Shown here in pieces: positions 12,681-64,000 of a stretch of 64,000 nucleotides of DNA; within the stretch, counting starts at the first letter, position 1, and each line of letters opens with the position of its first letter. Location of the stretch: NCBI GenBank assembly GCA_930367215.1, contig OV884058.1, positions 202,014,208 to 202,078,207 of the forward strand. Direction: 5' to 3'. Origin of the DNA: Pollenia angustigena (Eukaryota > Arthropoda > Insecta > Diptera > Polleniidae). The notes under the pieces are model-generated. The model searched no databases and was not told the origin of the DNA. It saw nothing but the letters and a program-made list of their open reading frames with translations. Both the position numbers and the translations under genes were made by a program.

Positions 12681-13335
12681 CATTTTTAATTAGGCTTAAG
12701 TTCATCAAATTTAATTTTCATTAAATTATTTTTATGAAGAATGGAATTTTACAACATGAAAATTAATTAATATTTACTGATAATTTTTCATTCTTGACTC
12801 AATCTGGGTTCGAACCCAGGCATTTTTACGGACAGGTTACCCTGACATATTTCGATTGCAACCACTCAATCTCCTCAGAGGGCTTGCCGTTTAACACTCG
12901 CAGCCATCGACGACTGCTGACGTCATTAGTCAAACATGAATCCTTAAACCAAATTGTATTTAACCTTTGGTAGATCGAAATTTGCTTTGAATGATTATCT
13001 ATTTTAATCTATTTTACATGTTCTTCCTTTACCTCTGTTTTTTCGTACTTTTGTCAAGAATTCTTCTTGAAGTTCAAAGTACATATTTTGTTTTTGTTTT
13101 TGTTTTTCATTTTTTTTTTTTTGTCTTTCTTTTTCTTGCTGACCTTTTCAGAACAACTTGAAGGACAAATGCAGACAAATTTAACAATTAGAAATTGGGA
13201 ATTATTTCCTTGTGAAGGTAACTTTATATTATTATAAACATTTTTTTCTTTTTTCGAATTTATTCTATGAGTTAAATTTCAGTTATGTATTTTGTAAAGC
13301 TTTTTTGTAATAGTTCTATTCCTTTAGTTTTTCAG
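12681..13335. repeat. Foreign repeat patchwork replacing most of pol
   Basis: Where protease, reverse transcriptase and RNase H should lie there are three pieces found elsewhere. The first (about 12683-12760, taggcttaagttcatcaaat) recurs at 35754-35831. The second is a tRNA-like B-box segment (12790-12895). The third (13187-13325, gggaattatttcctt then cgaatttattctatgag) recurs at 51237-51330 and twice, inverted, at 63187-63400. The pol deletion therefore has an insertional filler made of other repeats. Confidence 0.75.
12800..12895 (-). repeat. tRNA-like (SINE head?) segment
   Basis: On the minus strand a perfect 5-bp T-stem and loop, CTGGG-TTCGAAC-CCAG, contains a B-box match (GGTTCGAACCC). 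About 50 bases upstream, GAGTGGTTGCAATCG is a weak A-box. No acceptor stem closes, so this is at most a degenerate tRNA or a tRNA-derived SINE head. Confidence 0.3.
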
Positions 13336-24327: not shown

Positions 24328-25100
24328 ATATGGGAATTTCCGTCAAAAGGTCCACCGTGACCAAAAATTTAAAAGTTATTAAAAGCTGATTATTTAACGA
24401 TATTGTTATAGAAAAATATTTAGATTTTACTAATTTTATAAATTTACTCATAAAGTTGATCACTTAGATGAGCAATTAGACTGCAAAGTTGTACAAACGT
24501 AATTTCTTATTTGTGAGAGTGTTTTATTGTATGTTTTCTTTAATATGATCTCCTTTAAAAGAGGTGATATTTGATAAAAATTATTCCAAAAAAATTTTCT
24601 TAAATGGTCTGTAATCTAAGGAAGAGTTCAAAGAGAAATATGGTATTCGGATTAACGGTAAATTTTTATTTTATTGTGATCATTATTCCGTTAAAGTATT
24701 ACGGAAAAAATTTCACGTTCGAAATGTCATGTATCGACCTAGATTTTGGCTTAAAAAAAAGAAAATACAGAAGATTTTGGAATCAAACCAAGACATTTTT
24801 ATGTTACATTGCTACGTAAAATTCTGAAAGTAGCTTGACTAAAAATTATGCCAGGTTTCGCTGAATTACGTCTTTTTATACATGGCCAAAAAAACTACTT
24901 CTGTTTTTTTCACGTTCGAACCGCTAATTCTTTTGCCATTATCTTTGACCTAGAATCCATAAACTTAAGCATAGATAACAGTGCATTCTTAGTGCTATAA
25001 TTTAAGGGCTAAGAGAACGTAAAAATATTTGTTGTTTAAAATGTTATTGTATTTTTGCTACGTAAAACTGTCACGTTCAACACTTTGGAATTACCCATAT
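24328..25100. mobile_element. ATATGGG-ended element, member E
   Basis: Ends are ATATGGGAATTTCC and, in reverse complement, ATATGGGTAATTCC. The internal block ACTTCTGTTTTTTTCACG at about 24897 is shared with members at 33436, 53336, 59112 and 63414. A TCACGTTCGAA-like word occurs at 24711, 24910 and, near the right end, 25072. Non-coding. No consistent TSD. Confidence 0.65.
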
Positions 25101-33435: not shown

Positions 33436-33850
33436 ATATGGGCACTTCCAAGATTGTAAACGGGACATTCGCACACGTTTATATTGACAAAACTGTAAAA
33501 AACAACCTGATTTTAATTTTTTAAATTAATGATTCTTTTAACTCTCAATTAGCTCTTTAATTTCTGCAAATTAAATTTTTCGCTTACTGTCGTGGTTTCC
33601 GAGATAATTGCAAAAAACCAGTGATTGTAAACGGGACAAAAAAAAGGAAGTGGGTTTTAAGGGGTAACCGTTTAAACAGTGATTTCTGCTAAACCTGACA
33701 CAATATTTTATTGGGATTAATTTTAAAATGTTGCGTACTAAATGTGCCCTAAAAATGGTTTCGATTTCAAAATAAAATATGAAATACATTTTTTAAATAA
33801 ATTGTTAAAGAAATTGTAAACGGGACATTGTAAACGGGACAATTTTTCCA
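33436..33850. mobile_element. ATATGGG-ended element, member A (TGTAAACGGGAC motif x4)
   Basis: The left end is ATATGGGCACTTCCA. The 12-mer TGTAAACGGGAC occurs at about 33455, 33625, 33815 and 33829: immediately inside the left end, next to the shared internal block (reverse complement ACTTCCTTTTTTTT, about 33645), and twice at the right. The right ATATGGG end is not found, so the right boundary is uncertain. Non-coding. Confidence 0.6.
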
Positions 33851-35752
33851 CCATGATTTAAAATTTTTTTATGTTGCTATTTATAATCCTTTATATAAGA
33901 AACTTAATAAAAAATGTTTTTCAGATCATAAATATGCCTTAGATTAGAGTATTGTTGTTCCAAATGCATATTTTCTAATATACACAAGTATGTGCTAAAA
34001 GTTGTAGTACTTCGTTTACCATTTATCTTTTTTTCGAATCAATTAATTTATACGCATATATTAAAAAAATATAAGCAATTCTCTAAATAAATCTTGAAAA
34101 GAAAAAATTTTTTTTTTCATTTTTTGTGGTTGACGTTTTTTTGGAAATAGCCATATACATATGTGAATTAAAAGAAACACGAACTTATAATTAAAAAAGA
34201 GGAAGTGGACGCTTATGGAGCTCAAAGTGGGGGTAAAAAGGAACAAATTTACAAAAAATTAAAAATCAATAGCTGCCACAGAGTAGCCAATAAAAGGTTT
34301 AATGTAGAACCGATCCCTTTTATTTTAAACATTTGAAATTGTAAAAAATTGGTCCCCACAGCTCCTAATAAGATGCCAGATACGGATCCAATGTATAACC
34401 GACCGCAATTTATTTTTTATCCCTAATATTTAATTCAAACTCCTTAAGGGCGTTCCCATACAAAATTTTGATACAAATATGGCATTAAATTAAATTCATG
34501 AATTAGGCACGAGCAGTGCCTCTTTGCTCTTTATCTGTAACATTTGTTTCAAACAAACCTATCCACTATCTCCTTTCCTTAAAGAGGCTTCCACACAAAA
34601 TGTCAATTATTTTTTATTCATAAATTTTGCACAATTTATCTGACCTTTGCACAGTATTTAGTTTGACCCGAAATCTTTGCCAAAACTAATTTCTTGCACT
34701 AACAATAATAATGTTTTTGTTAATGACTGTTGATTAAGAATAAATTAAAGTAAATAACTGCATATGTATAAGGAATTTTGCAAAAAACAAATATCTTCTG
34801 ATTTATGCGCAGTCGATGTTGACATTTGCAAGCAACGTAGACAGAGCAGCATAAAAACTGTAATTTTGATATAAATTAAAAAGTATTTTATCTATTATTA
34901 AATAAAAAGAAGGAAGTCGTGCATAATATGGTGAAGAGAGGGATAAGTAATTAAAAAAAAAACAAATTATTTTGGTGGAGCAAAAATTCTAACTTAACCT
35001 TAAATAAAAGACTTTTTCAATAAATATAAGCTTCTTCGAGTCTTTCATTAATTAAAAGTTCTAATAAAAGAATTCGTAATCTATTTTTTGTTATTTTTCT
35101 GGATTTGATTTATATCATTTTCTTTCAGACAGCTTCAGCTTCAAATAAAGCGCTCTATCTAATGTTTGGATTTTTGAAAAAATAAAAAGGAAAAAAACTG
35201 ATGCTGTTTACAATTTAATTATCAAGGAAATTGATTTAAATAACGTTGCAAAACAAGATTTGCCTTCGTAAAAAAACAAGGCTCATGGAAAAATGAACGA
35301 ATTTTTCGAGAAAAGCCAAAACTGATTTAACCAGGTTTCGTTTAAATCTGCTAAATTCCCATTTCATACTTATGATAAGCTGAAATTTATTATTGCTGGG
35401 ATAAGCTAGGGATTGCTTTTCGGTTTAAACCGTCAAAAAACCCTCGGTTTAAGCTTTTACTTTAAATATGTATATATGCCAAAAAAAATTAAAAAAACTT
35501 TATACATAACAAAATTCTTTAAATTTAAAATAAGTAATAAGTAGAACAAATGTTTCTTTTTTAAAAAAAGGACCTGAATTAAAACAAATAAAAAAATTGT
35601 ATTTTGCACTCCATACACGTTTCAATTCAATTGTCAACTGAGTCTTTCAACTGAATTGATGCTTGGCTACACACTTCATCGACTGAATTAAAAGATTTTA
35701 AATAAATAATTAGTATTGTGGTTATTTTGTTGAACTATTTATGGTTTTTAAT
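33851..35752. other. AT-rich spacer with one MITE scrap
   Basis: The only recognisable piece is at 35331-35420 (aggtttcgtttaa.tctgctaaattccc), related to the element at 23656-24095. No gene. Confidence 0.45.
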
Positions 35753-41601: not shown

Positions 41602-44158
41602 ATACACACTAGACTGGTCGCAATTTTTTTTTTAAATTTAATTGTTTGCGCTGCTTAAAATATGAGGTTTGGTGAAAGAAATCATGATCTAATTTTTCAG
41701 GTCAATCCGACGGTGCCTAGCCGTACCGGGTGGGGCCCAAAGTTCCCCATTTTATAAAAAAAACATCTTTTCTATCAGATCTTTAAAGTTATACTAGTTG
41801 AAAAGCCGAAAATCAAAAATATGGCTTCGTTACGATCTTCCGCAGAGAAAGTACTTCAAGTGTGCCAAATTTCAGCTTCCTATGTCATCAGATGGCTTCA
41901 GAAAGTTGCGGAAAGAATAGGACATACATGCAAACATCGTGACATACTAAGTAATTATATATTGTATAGATAGATTAACATATGTTCGCGCAACTCAAAA
42001 ACGCTTTAGCTTATTGAAAAACTAAAAACCGAAATTCCGCAATAAAATTTACTTTAAGTAAGTTAAAACTTTTTTCTTTATGTTGGCTTTGGTTTTCGAG
42101 ATATACCGTTATTTCGATAATTAAGGATGTTACACAACATATGTTCGCGTAACTCAAAAACGCTTTAGTTTATTGAAAAACTAAAAAAAAAACCGAAATT
42201 CGGCAATAAAATTTACTTTAAGAAAGTTGAAACTTTTTTCTTTATGATGGCTTTGGTTTTCGAGATATACCGTTATTTCGAAAATTAAGGAGGTTGCATA
42301 AGATATGTTCGCGTAACTCAAAAACGCTTTAGTTTATTGAAAAACTAAAAAAAAACCGAAATTCCGCAATAAAATTTACTTTAAGAAAGGTAAAACATTT
42401 TTCCTATATGCGCAGTCGTTTTAGAAACATAATTTTTTTTCTGGGAAAAAAAAATATTTTTTTATTAAAATTTCGGAATTTTTGTTTTTAAAAATTCATA
42501 AAAAATTGAAAAATTCAGCTATGCTTCTAATTTTATGCAGACATATAAAAAACAACATTGCAAACAAAACAAGCTATAAATGATTAAAATCTCTAAACAA
42601 CTTTTGATTTTATGTATTCACAAAAATGTGGCGGTTTTTTCCAGAAAAAAAAATTATGTTTCTAAAACGACTGCGCATATAAGAAAAACGTTTTACCTTT
42701 CTTAAAGTAAATTTCATTGCGGAATTTCGGTTTTTTTTAGTTTTTCAATAAACTAAAGCGTTTTTGAGTTACGCGAACATATCTTATGCAACCTCCTTAA
42801 TTTTCGAAATAACGGTATATCTCGAAAACCAAAGCCAACATAAAGAAAAAAGTTTTAACTTTCTTAAAGTAAATTTTATTGCGGAATTTCGGGTTTTTGT
42901 TAGTTTTTCAATACACTAAAGCGTTTTTGAGTTACGCGAATATATGTTGTGCAACCTCCTTAATTTTCGAAATAACGGTATATCTCGAAAACCAAAGCCA
43001 ACATAAAGAATAAAGTTTTAACTTTCTTAACCCTAGAACACACACCCGGGTACAAATGAATCCACTTGCAACTTTGCAGTGATGTAACTCAGGAACGGCT
43101 TAACTTAAGGAATAGAGATTCCAGATCTAGGAAACATAAGTAATTTTTAATTGTTTAAAGTTTATTTGATGCAATTCGGATCAGTGGTTCAGCAGCTACG
43201 AGCTTACAAAGTCGACACCTACGTAAACACACACCCGGGATACGTTTGTGCCACACCAGCTTATATCAAAATAAAAGGCAACAAACCATTTTATAGTGTG
43301 TTTAAATTATATTATTTTATTTGAAAAATTAAAATTATGAATTATTGTTACATATTGTGCACTCGGTATTGGTGATCAGCTAAATAATGGCGAATGCACA
43401 ACAACATCAAAAAGCAACCGTTAGAATATCCAAATACTACAAACACTTGTTTATCACTTGAATAATAGTTGCCTGCATGCACTCTTTTGCTTATATCTTT
43501 TGAACTATGTAGAATATTTGCATGAAACAACACTAAAACATTTTTAAAATATTTATTTACGCTTTAAAAAAAAAAAAATAAAAATTAAATTGGATCATTT
43601 AAACATAAAAAAGTCAAAATAAGCTAGTAGGTACAAACGTATCCCGGGTGTGTGTTCTCGTAGAAAAAGTTGGGTATGAATCGTACGGTTAAAGTAAATT
43701 TTATTGCGGAATTTCGGTTTTTTTAGTTTTTCAATAAGCTAAAGCGTTTTTGAGTTGCGCGAACATATGTTAATCTATCTATACAATATATAATTTCTTA
43801 GTATGTCAGGATGTTTGCATGTATGTCCTATTCTTTCCGCAACTTTCTGAAGCCATCTGATGACATAGGAAGCTGAAATTTGGCACACTTGAAGTACTTT
43901 CTCTGCGGAAGATCGTAACGAAGCCATATTTTTGATTTTCGGCTTTTCAACTAGTATAACTTTAAAGATCTGATAGAAAAGATGTTTTTTTTAAAATATG
44001 GGGAACTTTGGGCTCCACCCGGCACGGTTAGGCACCGTCGGATTGACCTGAAAAATTAGAACATGATTTCTTACACCAAACCTCATATTTTAAGCAGCGC
44101 AAACAATTAAATTTAAAAAAAAAAATCCCATACAAGATGCGACCAGTCTAATACACAC
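41602..44158. mobile_element. 2.5-kb foldback element, arms of about 840 bp, 8-bp TSD
   Basis: The element 41610-44150 starts TAGACTGGTCGCA and ends TGCGACCAGTCTA, flanked by ATACACAC (41602-41609, 44151-44158). The arms mirror each other almost base for base around a loop of about 190 bp centred near 42545. Each arm holds three tandem units of about 160 bp (left starts 41981, 42140, 42304: TATGTTCGCG.AACTCAAAAACG). The right arm is split by a TTAA-flanked MITE (43031-43688). No coding frame. TAG ends and an 8-bp duplication suggest a hAT-mobilised foldback; the flank is a TACA-rich tract, so the duplication is less decisive. Confidence 0.9.
43027..43692. mobile_element. piggyBac-type MITE (TTAA TSD) in the foldback arm
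   Basis: The element 43031-43688 is bounded by TTAA on both sides and starts CCCTAGAACACACACCCGGG. The word ACACACACCCGGG(A)TAC recurs at 43042, about 43232 and (inverted) 43640. The right terminus (CGTACGG) is a weaker match. Continuity of the foldback arm on both sides proves it is a later insertion. Confidence 0.85.
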
Positions 44159-52104: not shown

Positions 52105-52640
52105 ATACTAGCATTTGACCCGCCACTTCGTTAGCGTCAGACAGTAAGTAGCACCAAAATTGATTAAATGTTAAAACGAAAATAACAGTTAATGAACAAA
52201 AAAGTACCAAAAACTTCCCTCTTATAGATTTTTATCCACTCTGGACATTGCATCAATAATTTTATGTTTCTAGTTCCAGTACTAATGGAAATTCAAAAAG
52301 CACCAGTTAAAGAACAAAAAAGTACCAAAAAGTTCCCTCATAGATTCTTATCTTCTCTGGACATTTCATGTTTAATTTTATGTTTCTAGATCCAATAATA
52401 ACGAAAATTCAAAAAGTACCAGTTAAAGAACACAAAAGTACCAAAAAGCCCTCTTATATATTCTCATTCACCCAGGACGTTGCACCTTGAATTTTATGTT
52501 TCTAGGTCCAATACTGACGGAAATTCAAAAAGTACCAGTTAAAGAACAAAAAAGTACCAAAAAGTTCTCTTATAGATTCGTATCCACTCACGACATTGCA
52601 TGTTGAAACTTATGTTCAAAGGTTTAATATTAACCATAAT
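52105..52640. repeat. Tandem repeat of about 116-bp units
   Basis: ttttatgtttctag..cca.tactaa/gacggaaattcaaaaag recurs at about 52263, 52379 and 52495, each followed by accagttaaagaac and agtaccaaaaag. It begins at a segment actagcatttgacccgcc that is also present near 51490. Non-coding. Confidence 0.85.
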
Positions 52641-53333
52641 ATAAAATACCAGTTGTAGAACCAAAAAGCTGAAGAAAGATATACAATTTCTCGTATTTGC
52701 CATTTTGGTACTATTTTTACCCGCATTAAAATATCAAAAATTGCAATATTGTAGTGGGGACCCATAATTTAGTACGAATATGTCAATGAATGGAGACAAA
52801 TGTTTAGCAATAAAAAGTTACGATTTTCGAAAACGTACCGAATTCATATTCGTGTTTTTTTGATAAGTTTCGAATATGGTATAAACTTTATTTCTAGGTT
52901 AATTGGTTCAAAAGATAGATGGGGTGTCAAAAAAGTACCAAAATTCCGGTGGTATAACCTTAATTTCTAGGTAAATTAGTTTAAAAGATAGATGGGGTGA
53001 CAAAAAAGTACCAAAATTTAGGTTTTACCCGTTTTCTCTCCTAAATGAGCCGAATTTCAAAAAAGTACAAGACACCTGTGCGCTTATTTTTTAAAGAACA
53101 ACGATAAGTATTACAGTTTTTTTGTATCTCTTTTAGTTTTGGAGATATAAGGTTATCGAATTTATCGTGTTTACAATTTTTTACCCCCTAAGCATTCGAA
53201 TTTCCAAAAATCCCGTCTTAGTGGATCGATTTGGGGAGAGACCCACCTCCGGTCCAAATTTCAAGTTTTTAACTTTAGGCGTTTAGGCTGTGCGCTGATG
53301 AATCAGTCAGTGAGTCAGTAACGTTACAATTTT

Positions 53334-53693
53334 ATATATGGGCATTTCCATTTTGACGTGTCGTGATATTTGAACCACAACATTTAAAAAAAATTTAATG
53401 AAGAAGTCAAATTTGTAAAAAGGGTTTTTATATATACAAAGTAATGAAGTAGCACTGTATTCAGAAAAAAAATTACAGCAATCGACGCTAAGGATTTGCA
53501 GATATAAGCAAAAATATGCGCTGGCGTGACGTTAAAAAAACGGAAGTGTATTTTGACTTGCATTACAAAACTGAATAAGACTGCGAATTGAACAAGACGT
53601 TTTGTATAAAACCTTTTTTTAGTAAGATTTGGACTTATATAGATTTATTTTTCAAGCTACCAAATTTAAAAATCTTTGCTCGTTTAAAGGTAC
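53334..53693. mobile_element. ATATGGG-ended element, member C (left part)
   Basis: The left end ATATATGGGCATTTCCA is followed by GACGTGTCGTGA. The internal block, read in reverse complement, is ACTTCCGTTTTTTTAACGTC (about 53530-53550), with ggcgtgacgtt as its adjacent motif. The right end is not intact; member C2 follows. Confidence 0.5.
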
Positions 53694-53915
53694 ATATGGG
53701 CATTTTCAGCGAAAAGTCTGCTTTTTTTAATGTAACGCCAGAAACATGTTTTTCAAATGTTATCCCTTTTGTTTCAAAATGTAGGGCTAGTTGCGCTTTA
53801 TACCAAAATATAAAAGAATAAACTATACATATAAAATTGTTTGAGAACCAATTAAAATTACTTCCGGCGTTATGTGACAAATAGTAGACTTTTCGCTGGA
53901 GCTGCCCATACATAG
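53694..53915. mobile_element. Small ATATGGG-ended palindrome (member C2)
   Basis: The left end tatgggcattttcagcgaaa and right end in reverse complement tatgggcagctccagcgaaa both continue with agtct.ct and, 15-20 bases on, taacgcc.ga. About 220 bp, non-coding despite the open frame across it. Confidence 0.65.
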
Positions 53916-59040: not shown

Positions 59041-59981
59041 AATCAAAATCCACAGCAAAACCTTCTAAGCATTATGGTATGATCACTGGATTATAGCCAT
59101 TTAAAAAATATATATGGGCATTTCCCCAGAATGGTCTACCAGGACGATAAAATAAAATGTTGATTATCATCGTCTTTTATTGTTTCTTATTAGAACAAAT
59201 GCTATGTTCTTATAAAATAATGGTTTCCTAGCATATCTGAGCTGTTTTACTTGAGGAAATTAGTCTGGAAACTGGAAAATTTTATAATTTCCTGTATTTT
59301 CTACTTCTTAAGACATTTTTATATACTTATTTTACATGCAAAAAATATGTTATGTTTACACTCTTTCTTCATAATCTCGCCATTACAGTCAATTGTAAAA
59401 GGAGTATTAATTTTTTTGTTAAGGAAATTTGAAGACATTTATGATAAAATGCATGGTGATAATAATAAAAAAAAAACACATGGAAAAATCGTACGTTCGC
59501 GATCCGTACGTTCGCGACCGGTACATAAGCCAATTAAACAAAAACCAAGAGAGATATTTTATTTTGTAAATACTGGATGGAGACCTACATTAATACACTT
59601 TTAAAATAAATTAATCACTTTTGAAAATTCCGTTTCATTACGCAGATTTTTACATTTCACTACTGTCAGCCGAAGTTGACTTCTATTTTGCGTACGTTCG
59701 TGACAAATTGTTTATAACTCTTATTATGCAAACTTAAACACGATGAAATCCAACTTTTGTACTAAACATAGAACTACCCAAATGCTATCGAATCGCAAAA
59801 AAATGCTAGGAAAAGTTTTGTTTTTCTATATTATTTGTACATCAAAAGCGTACGAACGTACGTTCGTGACTCCAGGAAATGCCCATATGTAAATATAACT
59901 CAAATCTAATGTTGAATATCAAAAAAGATAGATTGCATTAATAAAGAAATAAAAAAAAAAAAAAAAAAAAATCAAAATCCA
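59041..59981 (+). mobile_element. Polyadenylated retro-insertion with 12-bp TSD in mariner copy 3
   Basis: AATCAAAATCCA at 59041-59052 is repeated at 59970-59981. The insert 59053-59969 ends with AATAAA (59940-59945) and, a few bases later, a run of about 20 A. This is the signature of LINE-mediated insertion of a polyadenylated RNA. The transcript body is short and unrecognised: only about 60 bp before and 70 bp after a nested DNA element (59112-59888). Confidence 0.8.
59112..59888. mobile_element. ATATGGG-ended element, member D (CGTACGTTCGTGAC motif)
   Basis: Perfect ends ATATGGGCATTTCC and GGAAATGCCCATAT. CGTACGTTCG(C/T)GA words occur at 59491, 59506, 59691 and 59859, the last next to the right end. 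The internal block GACTTCTATTTTGCG at about 59677 corresponds to that of the other members. It lies inside the poly(A) insertion. Non-coding. Confidence 0.75.
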
Positions 59982-63413: not shown

Positions 63414-63825
63414 ATATGGGCATGGGCACTTCCATCATGTCGAACGTGACTATCGTACACACTTAAAATTAAAAAAAAAGTCAAAATAAAACGTATATTT
63501 ATTTTGGCAATAGATTCAAGTTATAGCTTTTTATTAGCCCTATAATTTGTGCTATTGTTCATTTTGATAAATTGTTTCGTTTTCAAGAAAATTGCAAAAA
63601 AACAAGGCGTTTGCAGGTGACAAAAACAGAAGTGGTTTTTGTGGCCATTTTTTCGAATGCCGATTTCAGCGAAACCTGAGGCAATATTTGAATGCAAAAA
63701 ATTGTAGAATGTTATGCACTCATATCTCTTAAATATGGCTGTCATTTTAAATAAAAATAATGTATACTTTTTTTTATTTAGCTTTAATCGCTGTCGCACG
63801 TGATCTGTCGCACATGACATTTTTT
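63414..63825. mobile_element. ATATGGG-ended element, member B
   Basis: The left end is ATATGGGCATGGGCACTTCCA, then TGTCGAACGTGAC. TGTCGCACGTGATCTGTCGC lies at the far side (about 63790). The internal block, in reverse complement ACTTCTGTTTTTGTCACC, is at about 63620-63637. The region up to caatattt aligns with member A. The right terminus is not seen. Confidence 0.55.
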
Positions 63826-64000
63826 TTCATCATGATCTATATGTTGATTAGACCGGGTCGACCTCCATCCAAAAAAAAGTTGTGCCAGTCACCCCTTAGA
63901 ATGAAAAATATGTCAATGAAGTGTCTAAAACAGGAATAATATTTTTTTTGCCACGCCCCAAAATACAGCCCTTTTGGTTTTTTATATTTAGCGCTGCTAT
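63826..64000. other. Window end, nothing recognised
   Basis: Short AT-rich stretch with gccacgcccca. Too short to judge. Confidence 0.4.

Follow-up and report, generated by a model that had tools for sequence, protein, structure and literature searches.

The window analysed here, a stretch of 64,000 nucleotides from Pollenia angustigena, is part of a 1.37-Gb genome in 31 contigs. It contains five segments that are real non-autonomous DNA transposons, MITE-like, ~0.6–0.8 kb in length and bounded by the inverted ends ATATGGGCATTTCC (Table 1). The five window elements define families F1–F5; F6 is an additional family known from fetched copies (L049, L052, L054–L056, L058 and L064). Every fetched copy (loci with L numbers) lies in the initial 10 Mb of contig C1; the genome-wide scope is that of counts only. 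F2 is based on a single fully read copy.

A first-pass annotation had described the five segments as starting with ATATGGG and sharing their ends. The ATATGGG start is present at all five places, and opposite-strand partner ends lie at 25100, 34157, 53911 and 59888, with the fifth element cut by the window end. Two boundaries needed correction: the second end of the F2 element is at 34157 and not at 33850, and the F5 element runs past the window instead of stopping at 63825. The last 200 bp of F5 in the window match L051 and L053. Near End B, the window copy has a 6-bp duplication, GGGCAT, which is absent from the L053 copy.

Table 1. Coordinates of the five transposons and their internal sites in the window
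Feature	Positions	Strand	Details
F1 element (773 bp)	24328..25100	-	End B 25100, End A 24328; inverted ends and words
F1 word, site 1	25070..25080	-	TTGAACGTGAC
F1 word, site 2	24909..24920	-	TTCGAACGTGAA; then ACAGAAGT block at 24897-24904
F1 doubled site 3	24712..24736	-	CGATACATGAC + TTCGAACGTGAA
F2 element (722 bp)	33436..34157	+	End B 33436; End A 34157, decayed tip, GTCAACC box
F2 word, site 1	33455..33466	+	TGTAAACGGGAC
F2 word, site 2	33626..33637	+	AGGAAGTGG at 33645-33653
F2 doubled site 3	33815..33840	+	
F3 element (576 bp)	53336..53911	+	End B 53336, End A 53911
F3 site 1	53355..53367	+	GACGTGTCGTGAT
F3 site 2	53522..53533	+	TGGCGTGACGTT; block CGGAAGTG at 53541-53548
F3 218-bp inverted-repeat module	53694..53911	.	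End-A-type sequence on both sides, in place of site 3
F4 element (777 bp)	59112..59888	-	End B 59888, End A 59112
F4 word, site 1	59857..59870	-	GTCACGAACGTACG
F4 word, site 2	59691..59704	-	Block TAGAAGTC at 59678-59685
F4 doubled site 3	59490..59517	-	TCGCGAACGTACG x2
F5 element, truncated by window end	63414..64000	+	
F5 site 1	63438..63450	+	TGTCGAACGTGAC
F5 site 2	63610..63621	+	TTTGCAGGTGAC; block ACAGAAGTGG at 63626-63635
F5 doubled site 3	63792..63818	+	TGTCGCACGTGAT + TGTCGCACATGAC

The shared ends hold genome-wide: the exact 14-mer ATATGGGCATTTCC occurs 10,545 times (5229 + 5316), against 2 occurrences (1 + 1) of a reversed control. Inside this tip the two ends of an element differ, with End A carrying a box and End B carrying words. 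The End-A box, GTC(A/C/T)AC(C/T), is common to all six families seen and is of one type in F1, F3, F4, F5, F6 and the decayed F2 end. Under a strict rule, GTC(A/C/T)A(C/A)(C/T) was found at about +20–31 in 22 of 55 distinct exact-tip ends, and several further ends among the 55 resemble a decayed form of it. Full words are found towards End B and in the interior, not at both ends. The division between the ends is not absolute: End A of F1 also has a CGTGAC core (ACCGTGACC), and End A of F3 also carries a GTAACGTAACG stretch.

The elements target ATAT. From 72 ends collected with the pattern GGG(C/T)(A/T)NTTCC, we kept the 70 in which no more than one of the four letters preceding GGG departed from ATAT, and in those 70 the letters were A in 69, T in 68, A in 70 and T in 70. 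Outside ATAT there is a palindromic TRY..RYA preference in the same 70 ends. The flanks of the printed elements hold no repeat beyond ATAT. Insertion is demonstrated by paralogous empty copies, found for four elements in the fetched DNA at ~76–88% identity. Relative to a single ATAT, the empty-site junction was at +1 for L030/L052, -1 for L037/L024 and 0 for L060/L011 (all within 1 bp), but at +5 bases for L037/L051 and +4 for L004/L046, and ATAT was kept letter for letter in no empty copy across the five comparisons. The comparison with empty sites proposed in the first-pass annotation is compatible with one ATAT in three cases, whilst the copies are too diverged to settle the duplication. 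With ATAT on both flanks and diverged empty sites, duplications of TA, AT or ATAT would all fit.

Each member had been proposed to carry its own recurring word. In the window, TGTAAACGGGAC recurs (4 occurrences), as do TCACGTTCGAA (2) and CGTACGTTCGTGAC (2), but GGCGTGACGTT occurs once and TGTCGCACGTGAC has no exact match; near forms of the latter are at 63438-63450, 63792-63804 and 63806-63818. Beyond these counts there is a common layout. In F1, F2, F4, F5 and F6, four sites are near-fixed in distance from End B, at about +25, +194, +379 and +393, so that motif positions are conserved in these families. The core heptamer is at 25/194/379/393 in F1, 25/196/385/399 in F2, 26/192/378/393 in F4, 25/194/376/390 in F5 and 25/195/379/393 in F6 (measured on a consensus for F1 and F6, on the window copies for F2 and F4 and on the L053 copy for F5). 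The third site is a close pair, with units 14–15 bp apart, and a block that reads AGAAGT or GGAAGT on the other strand adjoins site 2 on its inner side. F3 has only sites 1 and 2, weakly alike, plus the block at the usual places, and has no site 3. Copies vary in spacing through indels and some are without sites; the F4 site-1 word is missing in L061 and L057, and L016 has End-A sequence at both ends, yet all three are still present as insertions.

The word is private to each family and nearly constant across the sites of one element. Typical words are TTCGAACGTGA (F1), TTGTAAACGGGAC (F2), GTCACGAACGTACG (F4), TGTCG(A/C)ACGTGAC (F5) and ATCGTACGTGAC (F6). All are variants of one box, with an ACGTGAC, ACGGGAC or ACGTACG core and a variable 5' half. 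Identity of the variable half is 0.66 within elements and 0.37 between families, and that of the core half is 0.94 and 0.71, respectively. The claim that the word differs by member is therefore right as to family specificity, but the words have diverged from a single box with an ACGTGAC core and are not unrelated swaps.

The doubled site can also be followed genome-wide. A doubled F2 word gave 451 exact matches (longer runs counted more than once) and none in the control, and a doubled F5/F6-type pattern gave 378 matches, again with none in the control. Letters were available for 42 of 100 places listed among the 378, and in 41 of the 42 the same variable base was present in both units (32 C/C and 9 T/T, the remaining place being C/A). 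The 41 concordant pairs are copies of two families, so they indicate that the pairing has been kept and are not 41 independent events.

Two tests against chance were made. In a blind search over the first 430 bp we counted repeats of 12-mers, allowing up to two mismatches and requiring four or more G or C, with 200 shuffles for each family. F2, F4 and F6 gave 52, 46 and 51 pairs, against shuffle means of 1.5–2.0 and a maximum of 12, and F1 gave 13 (shuffle maximum 8). Neither F5 (6 pairs, shuffle maximum 9) nor F3 (7 pairs, shuffle maximum 11, the word not being among them) was significant, so that by this search recurrence exceeds chance in F1, F2, F4 and F6 and is weak in F3 and F5. The offsets of the blind repeats agree across F1, F2, F4, F5 and F6 (14–15, 166–171, 184–189, 198–203, 351–360 and 367–374), with a few additional pairs at other offsets in F1, F4 and F6. 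In the second test, word identity was 0.79 within an element versus 0.53 at the same site between families, the within-element value being reached in 0 of 2000 permutations, although the test is partly circular since the site windows were picked by the word itself. In control windows +18 to +60 off the sites the order is reversed, as in ordinary homologues, with identity of 0.26–0.34 within an element and 0.33–0.50 between families. Masking the words still left the anchors no more than three alignment columns apart, but masked stretches are able to attract one another. Layout and concordance are evident in five families and weakly so in F3.

The families are related outside their words. F1, F2, F4, F5 and F6 align over ~400 bp with 60–68% identity (z 4.5–19.6, words unmasked), and F3 aligns with the others over ~215 bp (z 3.5–5.5). 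Copies within a family are 83–99% identical in the pairs compared. We built a tree from the first 330 bp, leaving out the first 34 bp and masking the remaining recognised words. Each of the five word-defined families represented by two or more copies was monophyletic: F1 (6 copies, support 0.98), F3 (5, 1.0), F4 (11, support only 0.69), F5 (2, 0.96) and F6 (6, 1.0). Families defined by the word are thus clades, a test that the first-pass annotation had proposed. The single F2 copy is sister to F5, which places a large word change, F5 to F2, between sister families. Separately, L028, L029 and L030 are stretches ~7.7 kb apart on C1 that share one 783-bp F1 insertion within matching hAT-like surroundings; segmental duplication has probably multiplied this insertion.

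The common internal block reported earlier needs qualification. Exact ACTTCYGTTTTTT is present in two of the five window members (24897, plus strand, and 53547, minus strand), and the other three have shorter or variant forms: a shorter one at 63633 and, on the strand read from End B first, AGGAAGTGG (33645) and TAGAAGTC (59678). Within the elements, this 13-mer is one form of the AGAAGT/GGAAGT block just inside site 2. Genome-wide, ACTTCYGTTTTTT occurs 23,405 times versus 878 for the control. In a sample of 92 occurrences at 44 loci in the first 5 Mb of C1, 76 belonged to an unrelated ~565-bp tandem repeat without the element ends (75 assigned by script and one by eye), 10 to F1, 4 to F3 and 2 to neither. 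We therefore rejected ACTTCYGTTTTTT as a family marker, since in the sampled loci it mostly reflects that repeat.

The ~565-bp units occur singly or in arrays, some of them plus then minus, head to head, and a related stretch lies at 13032 in the window. By eye, the unit (L009, L014, L017, L027, L044) has a tRNA-like stretch, GGGCTCGAACCCAGG; ARAGORN reported no tRNA in five tandem-repeat loci. Other repeats in the window are two tandem arrays of a ~164-bp unit in inverted orientation to each other (41977-43030) and tandem arrays with 116-bp and 73-bp units and a common phrase, AAAAAAGTACCA (52179-53018).

The autonomous copy that the first-pass annotation hoped for was not recovered among the fetched copies: like MITEs, these show no transposase frame of their own, and no transposase could be tied to their ends. 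A translated comparison of the longer interiors gave no convincing shared coding sequence among the matches listed. Among the 40 places listed for each end of F4, End B and End A meet, judged by eye, in two elements of ordinary length and in no long copy. A hAT in the F6 copy L052 was rejected as nested, having CAGGCGCGGAT ends and the 8-bp repeat ATGTATGT on both sides; a mariner-like frame, so named by eye and giving nothing over the Pfam cut-off, lies within it. Copia-like frames in L050 and an integrase frame in L051 (Pfam rve) were also taken as nested. The long F6 copy further contains a short frame that by eye resembles the end of a Pif1-type helicase (L052:1472-1615, minus strand).

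We consider it probable that the families are subfamilies of one non-autonomous transposon clan, each with a word array that matches its own DNA-binding protein. A transposase encoded elsewhere would cut and paste the elements into ATAT targets, and the shared outermost ~14 bp and the End-A box (GTCNAC) would be read by a conserved part of the transposition machinery. At End B there would be an array of one ~14-bp putative binding site, at ~+25, at ~+194 beside the AGAAGT block and as a pair at ~+379/+393. Within a family, every copy of the site would have changed in step with the others, above all in the variable 5' half, and may follow the DNA-binding domain of the family's own transposase or of a partner protein. 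The concordance is most likely explained by such a protein reading the word. The shared ends and target, the near-fixed positions, the within-element concordance and the clades are observed; from these we infer a protein, its identity and its co-evolution with the words. At the level of the DNA, the earlier idea of a lock and key that turn over together is strengthened. In its fullest form, at least six families would make up a lock-and-key series, where tip, target and layout are fixed and the word alone has turned over, in concert across as many as four positions, every turnover being matched by an altered DNA-binding domain in a private transposase or partner protein. This stronger version is a serious possibility, though one that we advance tentatively. 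If true, the families could coexist without mobilising one another's copies.

A division of labour between two proteins is possible but, on balance, doubtful. Here, the transposase would read the tip and the End-A box, and a separate DNA-binding partner, like the Myb/SANT protein of PIF/Harbinger-like elements, would read the End-B words, the array serving to nucleate a complex or to mark orientation. The asymmetry of the ends fits, with the box at End A in all six families and the full words on the End B side, but a related core is borne by End A of F1 and F3. GG-type termini, an AT-rich palindromic target and very short duplications also recall the PHIS groups, as far as the available portions of PMC4482050 and PMC10045372 describe them, although the ISL2EU target given in the former, A|AT|T, differs from ATAT. 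First-look candidates for DDE_Tnp_4, the PHIS transposase domain, number 1,947 in the genome; 150 were scored and every one passed the cut-off. No element had a PHIS transposase within it or next to it, and by eye no listed DDE_Tnp_4 place was <10 kb from a listed F4 or F2 place. The abundance of the domain leaves a PHIS partner possible and shows no link to the elements.

It is unlikely that the words are sites for host transcription factors, serving germline expression of former autonomous copies, with a factor that differs by family. The sites fall in the ~400 bp next to one end, a possible place for a promoter, and the CACGTG-like and TACGTGAC-like cores resemble known factor sites. However, each family has one site at about +16–31 from the tip, better suited to end recognition, and the words are family-private although the host is common to all families.

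We think it very improbable that gene conversion or slippage, with no protein exerting selection, made the words of an element alike. In favour of this, site 3 is a tandem pair 14–15 bp apart, which grows to more units at C1:176069207-176069261, and the identity is confined to the site itself. Against this, the sites are up to 370 bp apart at near-fixed positions with unlike flanks (0.26–0.34 at +18 to +60), and conversion would tend to bring the flanks along.

The long F5 copy L051 contains a 214-aa frame that matches the HzTransib transposase (PDB 6pqn, E 4.4e-43) and has 94 homologues; wherever an organism is named, it is an insect. Matches in the genome amount to 7,256 first-look candidates, and the 150 scored fall in groups near 93% and 78% identity. 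The frame belongs to a canonical Transib (L051:3769-7015) with ends CACAGTGG and CCACAGTG, sitting between CGACG repeats (the duplication) and between site 1 and the remainder of the F5 copy. That this transposase moves the elements is scarcely credible, and we rejected it as the F5 transposase: it lies in its own nested element, with F5 sequence continuing on both sides.

Returning to families whose words would match their own DNA-binding proteins, how related transposons within one genome come to disregard one another's copies has usually been argued from few element pairs. As the families agree in tip, target and layout and differ in the word, the change in recognition is largely isolated from other changes. 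They would thus be natural substrates for testing how scattered sites and the DNA-binding domain that reads them evolve jointly, and could show whether a word change frees a family from the parasitic copies of its relatives.

Among known systems, MITEs are likewise short and non-coding with inverted ends, many copies and both ends equal in number (1,559 and 1,555 first-look candidates genome-wide for the two ends of F4, 40 scored each), but here there is an ordered, one-sided array of a family-specific word at positions kept across families. Transib elements have CACWRTGG-type ends and a 5-bp duplication, whereas these elements have ATATGGGCATTTCC ends and an ATAT target. The target of piggyBac is TTAA, compared with ATAT at nearly all of the 70 ends. 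Tc1/mariner targets are palindromic and centred on TA; so is the target here, and it is compatible with a TA duplication, as it is with AT or ATAT. We know of no family with the tip TGGGCATTTCC. The TA duplication made by Tc1/mariner is described in the accessible part of PMC10045372. In titles and the openings of abstracts we found no description of this layout, which is not proof that it is unpublished, and a text search of the literature for forms of the end sequence gave an unrelated match only.

The hAT element Herves has a short subterminal motif bound by its transposase, with binding that differs between the ends, and the motifs differ between hAT elements (available section of PMC3143072). 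The word array would work likewise, being a short motif near the ends, but here the word varies among families whose tip is the same, and the sites reach to about +400. hAT elements also make 5–8 bp duplications (PMC4482050, in the part available), which the printed elements do not show. PHIS/ISL2EU elements, as outlined in the same excerpt (PMC4482050), are animal elements with GG-type termini, an AT-rich palindromic target and a very short duplication; their target is A|AT|T with an AT duplication, in contrast to ATAT here, where no transposase is tied to the ends. Lastly, in the coral CMITEs, according to the accessible text of PMC2872659, conservation between families is greater in the interior than at the inverted ends. 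They too are MITE families that share a conserved part and differ in another, but in the elements described here it is the tip and the positions of the sites that are conserved and the word that differs.
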